From IMG/VR virus record IMGVR_UViG_3300030107_002285, positions 1 through 34,173 of that record: DNA of 34,173 nt, one strand, 5' to 3'. The position numbers and the translations under genes are program-made. Below, piece after piece: positions 5,801 to 22,538 of the stretch (its first letter is position 1; each line of letters begins with the position of its first letter). The notes below the pieces were generated by a model that saw only the letters and a program-made list of their open reading frames with translations, ran no database searches and had not been told where the DNA came from. This DNA is from a virus.

Positions 5801-6619
5801 TATATGAATTGTGTTGGTATCTTTATTATACCTTGCATTAACATATCGACTATCTACATCTTCTTGTTGCCCTGTCTTAGCTTTAGTAGCTTGCTGAACT
5901 TTCCCTGTCTTAATATTAACTTTATACTGGTCGGCAAGATTAACTGCATTAAATTCTGTATTTCTTACAGTTTGACTAAACTTACGAATCATATCATCGT
6001 TTAACGAATGGGCTTTTTTTACAGACCTTTTATATCTGGCAACAGCCATAGGAGTTTTTACTATTCCTCCCAATGCACCACCAAAAACAGTCGATGAGCC
6101 TATATTCATCATAGTTTCCATTTGTGTATTTGTTGGGTCAAAAGGAGTTCTTAATCCTTCGGAAACTCCACCATATAATAACCCAGCTTTCGCTCCACTT
6201 TTTATTCCTTGCATTACAGTTTTACCAGCAAGACTATAAGGAATCATCCATGTTAATGGGTCAATCATTGCACCAGCTAACATTGAGTGCCAATGCAATT
6301 TGCCCATATTTTCTTTGACCTTTAACATCTCTGTTTGATTTTCACGCATCCATGTTAATTCATCCATAGACCTAGCGTTCATAAGATATGAAGGATTTTC
6401 ATAAGTAAAATCAATATGATTTTCTGGTTTAAAATTTACATCTTCTTCAAATTTCCCAATGGATTCTATTGTATTAAGTAAAGGCTTATACTGATATTTT
6501 AATACTGTACCTACTTCTTCCCACCAACCCATAGGCATTGGTGCATCAACTCTTACATCATAAGGAAAATAAGGTGTCTTTAAATAATTTTTTTTATAGA
6601 GATGCTCTAATGAGGTCAT
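2879..6619 (-). CDS. large internal virion / DNA ejection protein (gp16-like) with HExxH motif
   Basis: A 1246-aa protein in the position of T7 gp16, the last of three core proteins before the fiber. It is Lys-rich with several hydrophobic helical stretches (for example residues 112-150 'AGAMIDPLTWMIPYSLAG' and ~1130-1155 'SGLMSLPFIFWNYGLAA'), as expected for a protein that crosses the envelope. The N-terminus lacks the lytic transglycosylase domain of T7 gp16; a murein domain is instead on the preceding protein. Residues 316-320 read H-E-L-E-H, an HExxH zincin motif in 'FVLLHELEHSKIK', followed at 335-340 by E-N-R-I-N-E, a possible third ligand. The start ATG 6619 overlaps the upstream stop by 4 bases. 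The ejection role is inferred from synteny and size; peptidase activity is only motif-based. Confidence 0.85.
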   Translation of the reverse strand: MTSLEHLYKKNYLKTPYFPYDVRVDAPMPMGWWEEVGTVLKYQYKPLLNTIESIGKFEEDVNFKPENHIDFTYENPSYLMNARSMDELTWMRENQTEMLKVKENMGKLHWHSMLAGAMIDPLTWMIPYSLAGKTVMQGIKSGAKAGLLYGGVSEGLRTPFDPTNTQMETMMNIGSSTVFGGALGGIVKTPMAVARYKRSVKKAHSLNDDMIRKFSQTVRNTEFNAVNLADQYKVNIKTGKVQQATKAKTGQQEDVDSRYVNARYNKDTNTIHIDKQDILNQFKEKPWTKPKVKGVKPLPENAFESPQEWYNFVLLHELEHSKIKQRTGESTASYENRINESAVKRFEEEQQKIKDTFEPEDIWDLAFPNYIGNIVSSPYRSAIQFASKAGVKLPDRVKKYFHLGFMDGGVTVKAHFLGKSLTSVLQSLGKHWGQYANYTRMLEDLHYQQIKGLENTVEAPRSYFGYRHRDKLWTQKNGNTFGEFLERAVTYYILNISDETIESLTKGGKLNDLTYLKFNPDEHFNGKPITAEEKKASKVIENFFKEYEKEGKNAKMFSIHDSVDALRGSIPRLMGLLKQSESRLKKYPRSKKIQKGIKDIKELMAKNKKTADTLEKQINDESKTITPPWEESYFARIIDKIKVLKHRDMFKQIVVTWFTHRPFKITYDYKTKKIVTKKFSDNPNDIDKRADKFIDELLATDNPETFAEMLAPLRVSSLNPRSFEAPNFFGVQATDGQIWRVSDFMVLDPASVMKNYVQRIAPKIEFKKKFGMSEKDVLEDIELSMMQFDLKDIAKIKQKFDVMYRRVVGQVVESPDRWDNELTNWLRAPAVITYLSDSGRAAIVDSGNIIFQYGFKPFQKAMETMVDPKSWGKFTKVSRGSGEGSIESLRGSIQQKVVDANLTHPVSRSFGATRDRLVDYSMELNFLRPLTTFFKEMINIFSTQDIIVKSFNYDSLTVFEKANLARHGVSESLARKIAKQKKNMTQSDDKTRWFAEIDKWDDEEALQGFLAANQTYMNLGSLTATASDKFQLVDGVVHVPYKPWMKKFGLRPDGRISAGSTPAGWQEPYVRLHSGLMSLPFIFWNYGLAANQKILQAGFDPTRPLFHRLAGASIMIGLGYMITRLRISDDVWERMSFQDRMARAVHMSGVTGMYSDLMYMNLHMYHGATGGGTGDFFIRPMYNPNSFDTIMEPFGAAYGLVGDVGRSGYTMATEGIGQGLAQMPYPLQYNMFIRDEIRELRRRLSN

Positions 6620-17335: not shown

Positions 17336-18853
17336 CTACATTCTCGCCCACATTCCTTGTCTTCGTTGCCGAGAAGGTTTGGCGAAAACATCAAAACCTT
17401 TTCGGGCATTAAATGCTTGAAGTGGTTTCTGGTTTGTCATTAACTGTCTACCCTCTCCAGCACCAAGCATTAAATACTGTAACGCATCATGTATATGTGA
17501 ATACATGTTTTTTTCGGGTTTGTCACTATATCTTTCTCCCGACACTTGTATTCGTCTATACTGATAGCCACCATCAAAACCTTTAATGATTGTTCGGCAA
17601 CGATAATCTATTAATATACCCGACTGCCCCTCAACCATATTTGTCAATGTCTTGTTGACAGCTTCTATCCTTAATCCAACATCATTGGATGAAGCTGGCA
17701 AAGCCCTTAAACCACAAGCCCTTAATATCTGAAAGGGTGTACTCTCATCCGTTTGCGCCCTAAAGTCTCCCGATGGGTCGCCATATATATGAGCCTCCAA
17801 CCCAGCGTATTTTGTTGCCAGTTCTTCTCTTACAAGTTCTGCAAAACGAACTATGCCCATATCAAAAGCAACCACTTCTGATTGTATTAACCAACGACCC
17901 CTGACCTTTTGACCAAAAACTGCGGCTGGTGTTAACCCAAAGTCCATGCCTATATACACAGGAACACCCTTGGCTATGTTTACTTCTTCTTTTGAAGCAT
18001 GCACATCGGGTGCAAACATCTGGTAAACTGGCTTGCCATCACTTACATTACCCAGTTTATTCATAATATAAACATCAATCCAAGACTTTGTTTTCCCTCG
18101 TATCGTGTTATCGTAATATGCTTTTAAAAGGTTGCTGGTGTTTTCTGCCTTGGGGTTTGCTTTATAATCCTTAACATTACCCGACTCATCCTTTATTTCC
18201 AGCATCGCACTCGGCTGTGTATAGAAATTCCATGTATCGGGAGAGACTAACATTCGTGCTTCTTCTTTTGGAATATGGTCTGGAACAGGGACTTCCCCCG
18301 ACATAATCGACCACCAATGGTCTTCTTCGGGAGCATTGGTATCACAGATAACTCCTGTCCAGCTTGGACCACCTTCCCTCATAGAAGGAAATCTCCCCAC
18401 CCTCATTGTGCAAGCATCAATAATTGACTTCGGTAATTCCCTTGCTTCGTTTATCCATACCCCTGTTAATTCCAAAGATAATAGCTTTTTAACGTCTTCG
18501 GGTCTATCCAATGCCAAGAAGATAACTTCTAAATCTACTTCTCCTTTTCGGATAAAATGCGTATACGGAACTTCCCATCGGAAGTTTCCCCATGTGTTTT
18601 CGGGAAACCAATCGAGCCAAGTTTTAATTGTTGTCGTTCTAAGCTGGGGGTTGGTGTTTCGTATAACTGCCCACCTCGATTTACGAATACCCTTCTCGTT
18701 TTTCTTTTGCGACAATGCCCTTCGGAAGACTTCAACGCAACATGCAACCGACTTTCCCGAACCAACTGGTCCTCGTAATCCTCTGAAGAAGGAGTCATCT
18801 TTCATAAACTCCTTTATTACGCTTCCGTCTGGCTTGTAATTAAAGGTTGCCAA
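17336..18853 (-). CDS. terL: terminase large subunit
   Basis: A 505-aa packaging motor. Walker A is at residues 28-35 (G-P-V-G-S-G-K-S), Walker B at about 131-137 (G-V-W-I-N-E-A, catalytic Glu136), and a coupling-type motif 'CDTNAPEEDHWW' at ~170-181. The RNase H-like nuclease domain shows Asp304 (I-G-M-D-F-G), Asp359 (Y-G-D-P-S-G) and Asp456 (H-I-H-D-A-L-Q-Y). All key residues are present. It pumps DNA through the portal and cuts concatemers. It overlaps the 66-aa gene by 14 bases. The small subunit is separated from it by two extra genes, which is unusual. Confidence 0.96.
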   Translation of the reverse strand: MATFNYKPDGSVIKEFMKDDSFFRGLRGPVGSGKSVACCVEVFRRALSQKKNEKGIRKSRWAVIRNTNPQLRTTTIKTWLDWFPENTWGNFRWEVPYTHFIRKGEVDLEVIFLALDRPEDVKKLLSLELTGVWINEARELPKSIIDACTMRVGRFPSMREGGPSWTGVICDTNAPEEDHWWSIMSGEVPVPDHIPKEEARMLVSPDTWNFYTQPSAMLEIKDESGNVKDYKANPKAENTSNLLKAYYDNTIRGKTKSWIDVYIMNKLGNVSDGKPVYQMFAPDVHASKEEVNIAKGVPVYIGMDFGLTPAAVFGQKVRGRWLIQSEVVAFDMGIVRFAELVREELATKYAGLEAHIYGDPSGDFRAQTDESTPFQILRACGLRALPASSNDVGLRIEAVNKTLTNMVEGQSGILIDYRCRTIIKGFDGGYQYRRIQVSGERYSDKPEKNMYSHIHDALQYLMLGAGEGRQLMTNQKPLQAFNARKGFDVFAKPSRQRRQGMWARM

Positions 18854-20291: not shown

Positions 20292-20440
20292 CCTTATCTT
20301 GTATCATTTTTACCTTTAACAGAAAAATATTTTTTAGGCAATAGAAAGTTATATCGAGCCTTTTGTGAAATATTCTGAGTACGAGGGATGATATGGCGTG
20401 GTCACATCATGTTTTGACCCCCTACCCCCATTTAAGGGAA

Positions 20441-20806
20441 TTAACTAGATAAGTCTATATTAACCTTTATGTCGCCAGCATGTAGGTGCATGTGCTTGTC
20501 TGGTGCTTTAAAGCCAGCCCTATCGAGTATATCCTTACTGGCTTCAAGTTGAACGTACTCAGATTTAGCGTTACCCGAGAGTTGAATGACTCTACCGAGT
20601 GCTTTAGTAGCACCGAGAGACATGGTATCACGAACTTGTTGCATCATATACTCTTGTACATGTGGTTGCCTCAAAGCCTTACTGGCTGTCACTCTACCAG
20701 ATTCACCCTTAGCATATCCAGCAGTAGATGAAGCTTCTTTTATCGTACAGTTAGTTGCTACGAGGGTATCAACGAGTTTGCGTTGCTTATCGGTTAAACT
20801 ATTCAT
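20441..20806 (-). CDS. terS: terminase small subunit
   Basis: A 121-aa protein of the Terminase_2-like small-subunit type. It has an N-terminal 'LTDKQRKLVDTLVATNCTIK' then EASSTAGYAKG helix-turn-helix (the 'L..KQ..FV......N...AA..AGY' pattern), 'ASKALRQPHVQEYM', and a helical oligomerisation region 'ALGRVIQLSGNAKSEYVQLE' then ASKDILDRAGF. It recognises the packaging site and loads the large subunit. It is the first gene of the leftward arm, with a good sigma-70-like promoter 30-60 bases upstream and AGGAAA before the ATG. Confidence 0.9.
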   Translation of the reverse strand: MNSLTDKQRKLVDTLVATNCTIKEASSTAGYAKGESGRVTASKALRQPHVQEYMMQQVRDTMSLGATKALGRVIQLSGNAKSEYVQLEASKDILDRAGFKAPDKHMHLHAGDIKVNIDLSS

Positions 20807-20835
20807 AAAGGCTGGTTTCCTAATCGAGTTTACTT

Positions 20836-20865
20836 ACTATAGATAACTAAAGATGGTACTGTCAA
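20836..20865 (-). promoter_or_regulatory. sigma-70-like promoter for the leftward (virion) arm
   Basis: On the minus strand, TTGACA (20865-20860) is a perfect -35. An 18-base spacer separates it from TATAGT (20841-20836), one mismatch from TATAAT. The expected transcript start is about 25 bases before the terS ATG. No phage RNA polymerase gene is visible, so use of host polymerase fits. Confidence 0.6.
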
Positions 20866-20883
20866 TTCTTTTTATACAAAGCC

Positions 20884-21005
20884 GATAGTGTTGACTATCA
20901 TATCGAATCACTTTTGTGTTTCCCTCCGTACCGTACCATAACCTCCACACAAAGGAATCGTTCACCAAATCACAGATTTGGACTCATCCAGATTCGACAT
21001 GATAG
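20884..21005. ncRNA. structured noncoding domain 1: closed three-way junction
   Basis: There is no coding potential here. Bases 20895-20909 pair with 20991-21005 (14 of 15; the exception is A-C on the plus strand but U-G on the minus strand). Inside, 20913-20919 (TTTGTGT) pairs with 20947-20953 (ACACAAA), and CCAAATC 20965-20971 pairs with GATTTGG 20975-20981 across a 3-base loop. A competing palindrome GATAGT-gttg-ACTATC (20884-20899) shares bases with the closing stem. It could be RNA structure, an operator, or a structured DNA site for packaging or replication. The strand is not certain; the wobble favours minus. Confidence 0.55.
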
Positions 21006-21046
21006 AAATGAGGATAATTACAATTTAATGTTTTGAATATACAATA

Positions 21047-21055
21047 TGTTATACA
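21047..21055 (+). promoter_or_regulatory. possible extended -10 promoter for the rightward arm
   Basis: TG-T-TATACA matches the extended -10 form (TGnTATAAT) with two mismatches in the hexamer, in an 84-base AT-rich stretch between the two structured domains. No good -35 is present. Transcription from here would place structured domain 2 at the 5' end of the early transcript. Tentative. Confidence 0.3.
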
Positions 21056-21089
21056 TAAATCAAAGAAAGATGAGCAAAAGTATTTACTC

Positions 21090-21436
21090 TCCGTTGCGAC
21101 ATAACCTAATGCTTCGCATTAGAACATGACGGACGTTTCCTTTCTTTGTGTAGCCTAATAAAGATTGAAAAGGTCATCAATCTTAGGCTACCTGTGTTTG
21201 AGTTTACTCTGACACATGTGCTAAGGCACATGACGAGTAACCTCTAGTATTGTCCGTTCATTCATCGGGCATAAGAAACATGCACCCTAACTCAAGGGTG
21301 GTCGGCTCATAGTTGTGTCTCAGAAGTGGCACGAAAGATGCCGAGCCTCCTACAAGTCGATGTAATATATTATTTCTTAATTTCATCGACCCTTGACTTT
21401 AGGGAGCGACCAACTGTGACCGATGAATAAACACGG
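21090..21436 (+). ncRNA. structured noncoding domain 2: multi-stem RNA or leader
   Basis: There is no ORF. Hairpin A is TCCGT 21090-21094/ACGGA 21129-21133 with CTAATGC/GCATTAG (106-112/116-122 of the 21000s). Hairpin B is 21150-21157/21184-21191 (8 bp) plus 21162-21167/21178-21183. Hairpin C is TTACTC 21204-21209/GAGTAA 21235-21240 plus CATGTGC/GCACATG (21215-21221/21226-21232). Domain D is closed by ATTCATCGG 21260-21268/CCGATGAAT 21420-21428, with CCGT/ACGG outside it. It contains 21283-21288/21295-21300, 21304-21308/21343-21347, 21328-21331/21339-21342 and 21356-21362/21384-21390. An alternative long helix pairs 21285-21298 with 21390-21404. I match it to no known family by eye. The strand is guessed from position upstream of the plus operon. 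Confidence 0.6.
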
Positions 21437-21442
21437 TTGTAA

Positions 21443-21460
21443 TTAAACAATAATGTTTAA
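21443..21460. promoter_or_regulatory. palindrome TTAAACA-ATAA-TGTTTAA before the first early gene
   Basis: A perfect 7-base inverted repeat with a 4-base centre, 14 bases before the AAGGAG of the 204-aa class gene. It may be an operator or a small mRNA hairpin. It is not a terminator, because no T-run follows. Confidence 0.45.
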
Positions 21461-21488
21461 CTATTAATTGTCACAAGGAGATAATCAA

Positions 21489-22082
21489 ATGACAAAAAAT
21501 CAAACTAATGGTACTGAAATAGTACAATCTATATCAGAGCAAATGGATTGCAAGTTTAGTTCTGAAAAGAAAACAGCCTTAGATAAAGAAATAGAACTAA
21601 GGTTCAGCAGAATACCTACATCGTTTTATCAGAGTGTTGAAATTGATGGTGTAGTTCACAATGCCAAGTACATCATTGATACTGACGGAAATGAAATACC
21701 CAATCCGTTCTTTAATATTGGCTGTCTCTTCAAAGAAGGTGTTGAGGCAACAAGGTCTAGTGAAGAGGTAGCAAGAGCATCTTCGCATCTTGATTCACAG
21801 CAGACTAAGTACCAAAGAGCAAAGCTAAAAGCCATAGCAAATGGTGCTACTGTTGAAGACATGGAAGGCACACAAGCATATTATATTATGTCGTGTGCTA
21901 TTGACAGATACCAGAAAGCACTTGAAGATGCTTATGTTACTGCTGGTGTTTGGGAAGCTGTATATGGCGAAGAGTTTTCTCCAAGTAAGCATGAGGAATA
22001 CTCAAGCAATTACAACAATCGTGACCAAGAGACTACTCCATTGTCAAATAATGTTGACATGAAAGAGTTTGGTTACAAATAA
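21489..22082 (+). CDS. hypothetical first early protein (197 aa)
   Basis: Start ATG 21489 is chosen because AAGGAG (21475-21480) lies 8 bases upstream. A longer TTG-started frame from 21468 would place that site inside the gene. The protein is acidic and soluble, with no membrane segment: 'DKEIELRFSRIPTSFYQSVE', a beta hairpin 'IDGVVHNAKYIIDTDGNEIP', then charged helices 'VARASSHLDSQQTKYQRAKL' and 'AIDRYQKALEDAYVTAGVWE'. I do not recognise a family. As the first gene after the long structured leader it is probably expressed at once on infection and could be a host-takeover or regulatory protein (inference). A 12-base-pair RNA hairpin follows the gene. Confidence 0.75.
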   Translation: MTKNQTNGTEIVQSISEQMDCKFSSEKKTALDKEIELRFSRIPTSFYQSVEIDGVVHNAKYIIDTDGNEIPNPFFNIGCLFKEGVEATRSSEEVARASSHLDSQQTKYQRAKLKAIANGATVEDMEGTQAYYIMSCAIDRYQKALEDAYVTAGVWEAVYGEEFSPSKHEEYSSNYNNRDQETTPLSNNVDMKEFGYK

Positions 22083-22097
22083 TAACAACAATAACAT

Positions 22098-22483: not shown

Positions 22484-22501
22484 GGGTTTCTCCCAAACTA
22501 G

Positions 22502-22538
22502 CTGTAGTAACTGTGAAAGGTTACTACAGTTTTTTTTT
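22502..22538 (+). terminator. intrinsic (rho-independent) terminator
   Basis: A perfect 10-base-pair stem CTGTAGTAAC/GTTACTACAG with an 8-base loop is followed by nine T residues (22530-22538). It lies 18 bases after the stop of the 63-aa gene and ends the first early transcript. The next 119 bases (22539-22657) contain a G-rich stretch with three GGTGG motifs (22547-22580) and no gene; a promoter for the next operon is expected there, but I could not place one. Confidence 0.9.

Follow-up and report, generated by a model that had tools for sequence, protein, structure and literature searches.

A strongly folded region with a nearly invariant core hairpin ahead of the first early gene of a Hodr-related phage: most likely a 5′ leader, perhaps with put-like antitermination

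Phage lambda has the order pL-nutL-N-tL1, that is, a leader hairpin, a small first gene, an intrinsic terminator and then recombination genes. GOLLD, ROOL and OLE are large ornate RNAs, and GOLLD occurs in phages. A put RNA is characterized by its binding to RNA polymerase (β′ zinc-binding domain) and by suppression of termination. To our knowledge, little is known about host transcription control by marine phages that lack a polymerase of their own. In phage HK022, put RNA immediately follows PL and needs no phage protein to suppress termination (PMC9378689). The window analyzed here is a virus record of 34,173 bases from an uncultured marine phage, taken at its full length, in which the minus strand carries a T7-like structural and packaging half and the plus strand carries the early genes, including those for an anti-restriction protein, a RecE-like exonuclease and a RusA-like resolvase. 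No RNA polymerase or DNA polymerase was found among the window proteins searched. Among isolates, Pelagibacter phage EXVC031P Hodr is closest, sharing 65% identity in the large terminase subunit and 61% in terS. A structured region sits at the divergent junction beside terS, between terS and the first early gene (gene 1), and is most likely the 5′ leader of the first early transcript. The features of the locus are as follows.

17336-18853, minus strand: large terminase subunit
20441-20806, minus strand: terS, terminase small subunit (PHROG 2538, E 2e-12), the synteny anchor
20836-20865, minus strand: late promoter of terS and the leftward genes, TTGACA-18-TATAGT (11 of 12 consensus bases)
21017-21045, plus strand: weak promoter-like site, a candidate, ATTACA-17-TACAAT (9 of 12 bases), ahead of the structured region
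21061-21148, plus strand: domain D1, defined by folding, with outer stem CAAAGAAAG/CTTTCTTTG and a side hairpin at 21072-21089, enclosing the core
21091-21101, plus strand: 5′ half of the core, CCGTTGCGACA
21102-21126, plus strand: variable inner stem-loop of the core, whose inner stems covary across relatives
21127-21137, plus strand: 3′ half of the core, TGACGGACGTT
21150-21191, plus strand: second hairpin, GTAGCCTAA/TTAGGCTAC with AGATTGA/TCAATCT (z −5.6)
21200-21244, plus strand: third hairpin, TTACTC/GAGTAA with CATGTGC/GCACATG (z −3.3)
21254-21436, plus strand: long-range domain D2; CCGT/ACGG and ATTCATCGG/CCGATGAAT close it, and its interior can adopt either of two mutually exclusive folds
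21489-22082, plus strand: gene 1, the first early gene, from AGGAG before the ATG and an alignment of syntenic genes
22500-22531, plus strand: strong intrinsic terminator, a 13-bp stem followed by a T run, behind the first three early genes

HK022 put, too, is a structured element that precedes the first early gene; both have stems interrupted by bulges and mismatches, no phage protein partner was found for either, and both early regions contain recombination genes. The order of leader, gene 1, terminator and recombination genes resembles HK022 pL-putL-nun. The put RNA is about 70 nt with two stems, whereas the present element, known from sequence alone, has four domains over 380 nt, and its core is absent from HK022 positions 20000-40751, where the best match (16 of 22 bases) is at chance level. 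Lambda nutL/boxB-N-tL1 shares the same order; however, N is a short basic peptide, whereas gene 1 encodes a neutral to acidic protein predicted to be helical, and no phage gene tracks the core. Like GOLLD, ROOL and OLE, the element is large, structured and noncoding, but it has no Rfam match and its sequence conservation is limited to one short core.

Folding supports the first-pass annotation, which had noted a structured element upstream of the early genes with pairing far denser than expected of an AT-rich spacer. As plus-strand RNA, 21060-21450 reaches −125.1 kcal/mol (z −5.99); as minus-strand RNA it gives z −7.55, and as single-stranded DNA z −7.6, and in each case none of 100 shuffles folded as well. 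All of the long exact helices named in that annotation are present at the coordinates given, including the three hairpins at 21090-21133, 21150-21191 and 21204-21240, although the first is larger than described, with CAAAGAAAG (21061-21069) and CTTTCTTTG (21140-21148) closing D1. In D2, ATTCATCGG (21260-21268) pairs with CCGATGAAT (21420-21428), extended by CCGT/ACGG. The local inner fold comprises CACCCT/AGGGTG (21283-21300), CCCT/AGGG (21390-21404) and GTCGGCTC (21301-21308) paired with GAGCGAC (21404-21410), and it is excluded by the alternative pairing of 21285-21298 with 21390-21404. D2 alone (21251-21437) has a z-score of −4.76, and its long-range fold (−64.4) is more stable than the local one (−59.9) by 4.5 kcal/mol. 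The suggestion of a long switch-like leader is only partly supported: its mutually exclusive folds are real on paper, but no relative aligns with the D2 part of the window, and the substitution patterns described below do not favor plus-strand RNA. The pattern of the 21283-21300 hairpin has matches in seven contigs.

The statement that the region holds no open reading frame also stands, as frames of at least 60 aa are absent from 20807-21488 and none longer than 43 aa begins with ATG, GTG or TTG. An Rfam scan of the window, including GOLLD, ROOL, HEARO and OLE, gave no family match at gathering or permissive thresholds, in line with the first-pass annotation, in which the element could not be assigned to a known family by eye, and ten relatives gave no match either. 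One sub-threshold match in the window was set aside as a chance match to a snoRNA. A second shared motif seen by eye, GTCTC...GAGCC, was unsupported when tested and was dropped.

A terS search yielded 80 loci. At the DNA level, almost nothing of the region matched these loci beyond the first 73 bases, in locus L002, and no direct DNA homologue of the leader was found in phage records. The terS of L002 is 97% identical to that of the window, yet its leader is otherwise unrelated. L002 and Hodr carry very stable but different stem-loops at the same place (z −7.1 and −5.7, respectively). The 99 leaders compared form 33 sequence clusters, and the last 380 nt of the leader scored below −3 in 30 of the 33 cluster representatives (mean −5.2; rough values from 16 shuffles each), as against 8 of 31 stretches of coding sequence behind the leaders (mean −2.2). 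Strong folding in so many unrelated leaders suggests that the folding habit is conserved while the sequence turns over. In clade A/B leaders (e.g., L075 and L102), a GCCCGCGCTT...CGCGCAAGCGGGC hairpin is embedded in larger hairpins at varying positions, which looks like insertion of one hairpin into another. Multi-copy mobile hairpins were considered and rejected, the hairpin modules being confined to the leader.

Comparison of leaders revealed an almost unchanging core of 22 bases, CCGUUGCGACA...UGACGGACGUU, which in the window (21091-21137) consists of CCGTTGCGACA, the variable stem-loop and TGACGGACGTT. In its best pairing, C-G, G-C, U-A and U-G are followed by a bulged G and then by C-G, G-C, an A-A mismatch, C-G and A-U. 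The mismatch is replaced by U-A in L048 and its kin, and the T-G pair, a wobble on the plus strand only, is invariant. Covariation was assessed in 29 distinct sequences including the window, after removal of the distal part of long inner stems. Covariation across homologues, the mark of a cis-regulatory structured RNA, is found in the D1 stems next to the core: they score 0.341 versus 0.094 in shuffles, 88.7% of cells are paired and 69 two-sided changes were counted versus 21 expected, and the pair adjoining the core occurs as GC, UA, AU and CG. Part of the invariance of the core here follows from the retrieval of the aligned sequences by exact patterns. The covariance model R1 gives the window 50.7 bits, the window being one of its 29 sequences, and recovers only core-bearing loci among 64 sources. 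The structured element is real, and its conserved core is new and without a known family.

The core is present in 54 viral contigs, the window included; exact patterns located the 53 others, 33 with a short and 20 with a long inner stem. In every contig that holds terS, it lies 120-370 nt upstream of terS and always on the strand of gene 1, a position kept even beside terS proteins that are only about 34% identical. Wherever the first rightward gene was located, the core precedes it. In the terS set, which avoids the bias of retrieval by pattern, the core occurs with at most two differences in 9 of 71 loci, and the remaining loci score at shuffle level. It is present in 8 of the 33 leader clusters, and L002 and G012, the closest relatives of the window, do not have it. 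As most leaders and these relatives lack it, the core is dispensable in this group. A pattern relaxed at three positions gave only three additional matches, without terS or terminase context, bacterial genomes gave two matches, about chance level, and the pattern of the window's own D1 hairpin has no matches elsewhere. The domain behaves as a cassette, in that some members of one leader cluster lack the whole core domain while the flanks still align. Across ten core-positive and nine core-negative genomes, no phage gene was found to track the core, which makes a host partner more likely than a phage protein. In L106, a contig with an unrelated terminase, the core lies inside matching stems at 5961-5995, which could reflect transfer or convergence.

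The product of gene 1 is fast-evolving, mostly helical and acidic, and gene 1 proteins have net charges from −11 to +3. It belongs to no PHROG or Pfam family, and a fold search of its model against the PDB gave no significant match. Gene 1 and its syntenic counterparts make up a highly divergent family marked by an NPFW-like motif and two long helices. In 17 of 30 leader clusters, gene 1 is followed after 5-26 nt by a canonical intrinsic terminator (shuffled sequence would give 0.1); the terminator of the window lies 417 nt behind gene 1, after two more small genes. These terminators show that gene 1 forms a closed, rightward transcription unit and, together with gene order, suggest that the leader is transcribed as well. 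In GC-rich clades, at most a dozen or so bases separate a hairpin from the ribosome-binding site, and no promoter-like site is found at that place, so that the message probably includes at least the 3′ part of the leader. Plus-strand promoters in the leaders are not above chance. TTGACA recurs 50-80 nt from terS in many relatives. The −35 of the late promoter is part of a longer conserved plus-strand word, TGTCAAYGCACA, common to many leader clusters; an overlapping plus-strand promoter using this −35 was tested and found unsupported. A promoter-like site (22054-22083, TTGACA-18-AATAAT, 11 of 12 bases) overlaps the end of gene 1. Such a site behind gene 1 is also found in three relatives and in Hodr, and with promoters at or behind gene 1 the later genes may not need read-through.

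We tentatively favor a leader in which the core hairpin binds a host component and gives put-like, RNA-based antitermination at the gene 1 terminator. Several stable hairpins with quickly changing sequence would make up this leader. D1 would offer an almost invariant recognition site, set between variable stems and formed by a helix that contains a U-G pair, a bulged G and an A-A mismatch, and its partner would be a conserved component of the host, in the simplest case RNA polymerase or a Nus factor. Binding to the core would then let the polymerase pass the terminator behind gene 1. Put-like antitermination is the leading, although tentative, mechanism. That the leaders constitute a new class of RNA-only antiterminators, with an almost invariant bulged hairpin in rapidly changing surroundings by which marine phages lacking an RNA polymerase of their own make the host enzyme read past the gene 1 terminator, we regard as unlikely for the present.

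The substitutions do not favor the plus strand. The helices that both strands share are almost purely Watson-Crick, G-U and A-C being rare, and the ratio of A-C to G-U mismatches on the plus strand is 49:16. This excess is the opposite of what plus-strand RNA would be expected to show and thus gives it no support, and it is partly due to the scarcity of G in unpaired positions. Given this result, promoters at chance level, promoter-like sites behind gene 1 and the lack of the core in most leaders, a DNA role or an RNA role limited to gene 1 is possible.

A transcribed leader RNA might protect the early messenger, control translation of gene 1 or form an RNA-protein pair with gene 1 that is exchanged as a cassette, a reading that we consider possible but doubtful. 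It would suit the fact that gene 1 is wholly different between the window and L002 despite their 97% identical terS and similar following genes, as well as the terminator-closed unit of leader and gene 1. It would also suit the last 60 nt of clade A leaders (e.g., L036, L041 and L113), where the stretch preceding the ribosome-binding site has two possible pairing partners, an upstream and a downstream copy of the same word, and in L113 all three copies change together, as in a switch. However, a core that hardly varies points to a constant partner from outside and not to a variable protein of the phage itself, and the homology and fold searches give no hint of a role for gene 1.

The hairpins may instead act as DNA, extruded or single-stranded, at a replication start, as a packaging signal or as a target of the phage's own junction resolvase, which we judge to be unlikely. 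The first-pass annotation had listed a packaging or replication locus as an alternative, and in favor of a DNA role both strands fold equally well, DNA parameters included (z −7.6). The nearly pure Watson-Crick pairing of the shared helices, the divergent junction beside terS and the RusA-like resolvase encoded by the phage point the same way. Against a DNA role stand the invariant T-G pair of the core, which is a wobble on the plus strand only, the fixed orientation of the core towards gene 1 and the closure of the unit by a terminator. A side effect of replication, in which template switching grows palindromes and keeps them matched with little function except for the core, fits the apparent insertion of hairpins into hairpins, the sequence turnover and the unrelated leaders of near relatives, but is improbable, as strong folding is retained at this one site of compact genomes in 30 of 33 clusters and one core stays constant while its flanking stems change.

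The short, nearly invariant core between variable stems is easy to test, and the order of leader, gene 1 and terminator gives a direct prediction. Phages with such leaders include relatives of a SAR11 phage isolate. A regulatory architecture that is kept while its sequence is almost wholly replaced is hard to detect by ordinary homology searches. A double C-tract (e.g., CCCCCCTGTAATCCCCCC) recurs upstream of terS in relatives, whereas that of the window lies downstream of terS, at 20418-20430. Possible roles of the double C-tract beside terS are those of a ribosome-binding region, a packaging signal or an R-loop starter.
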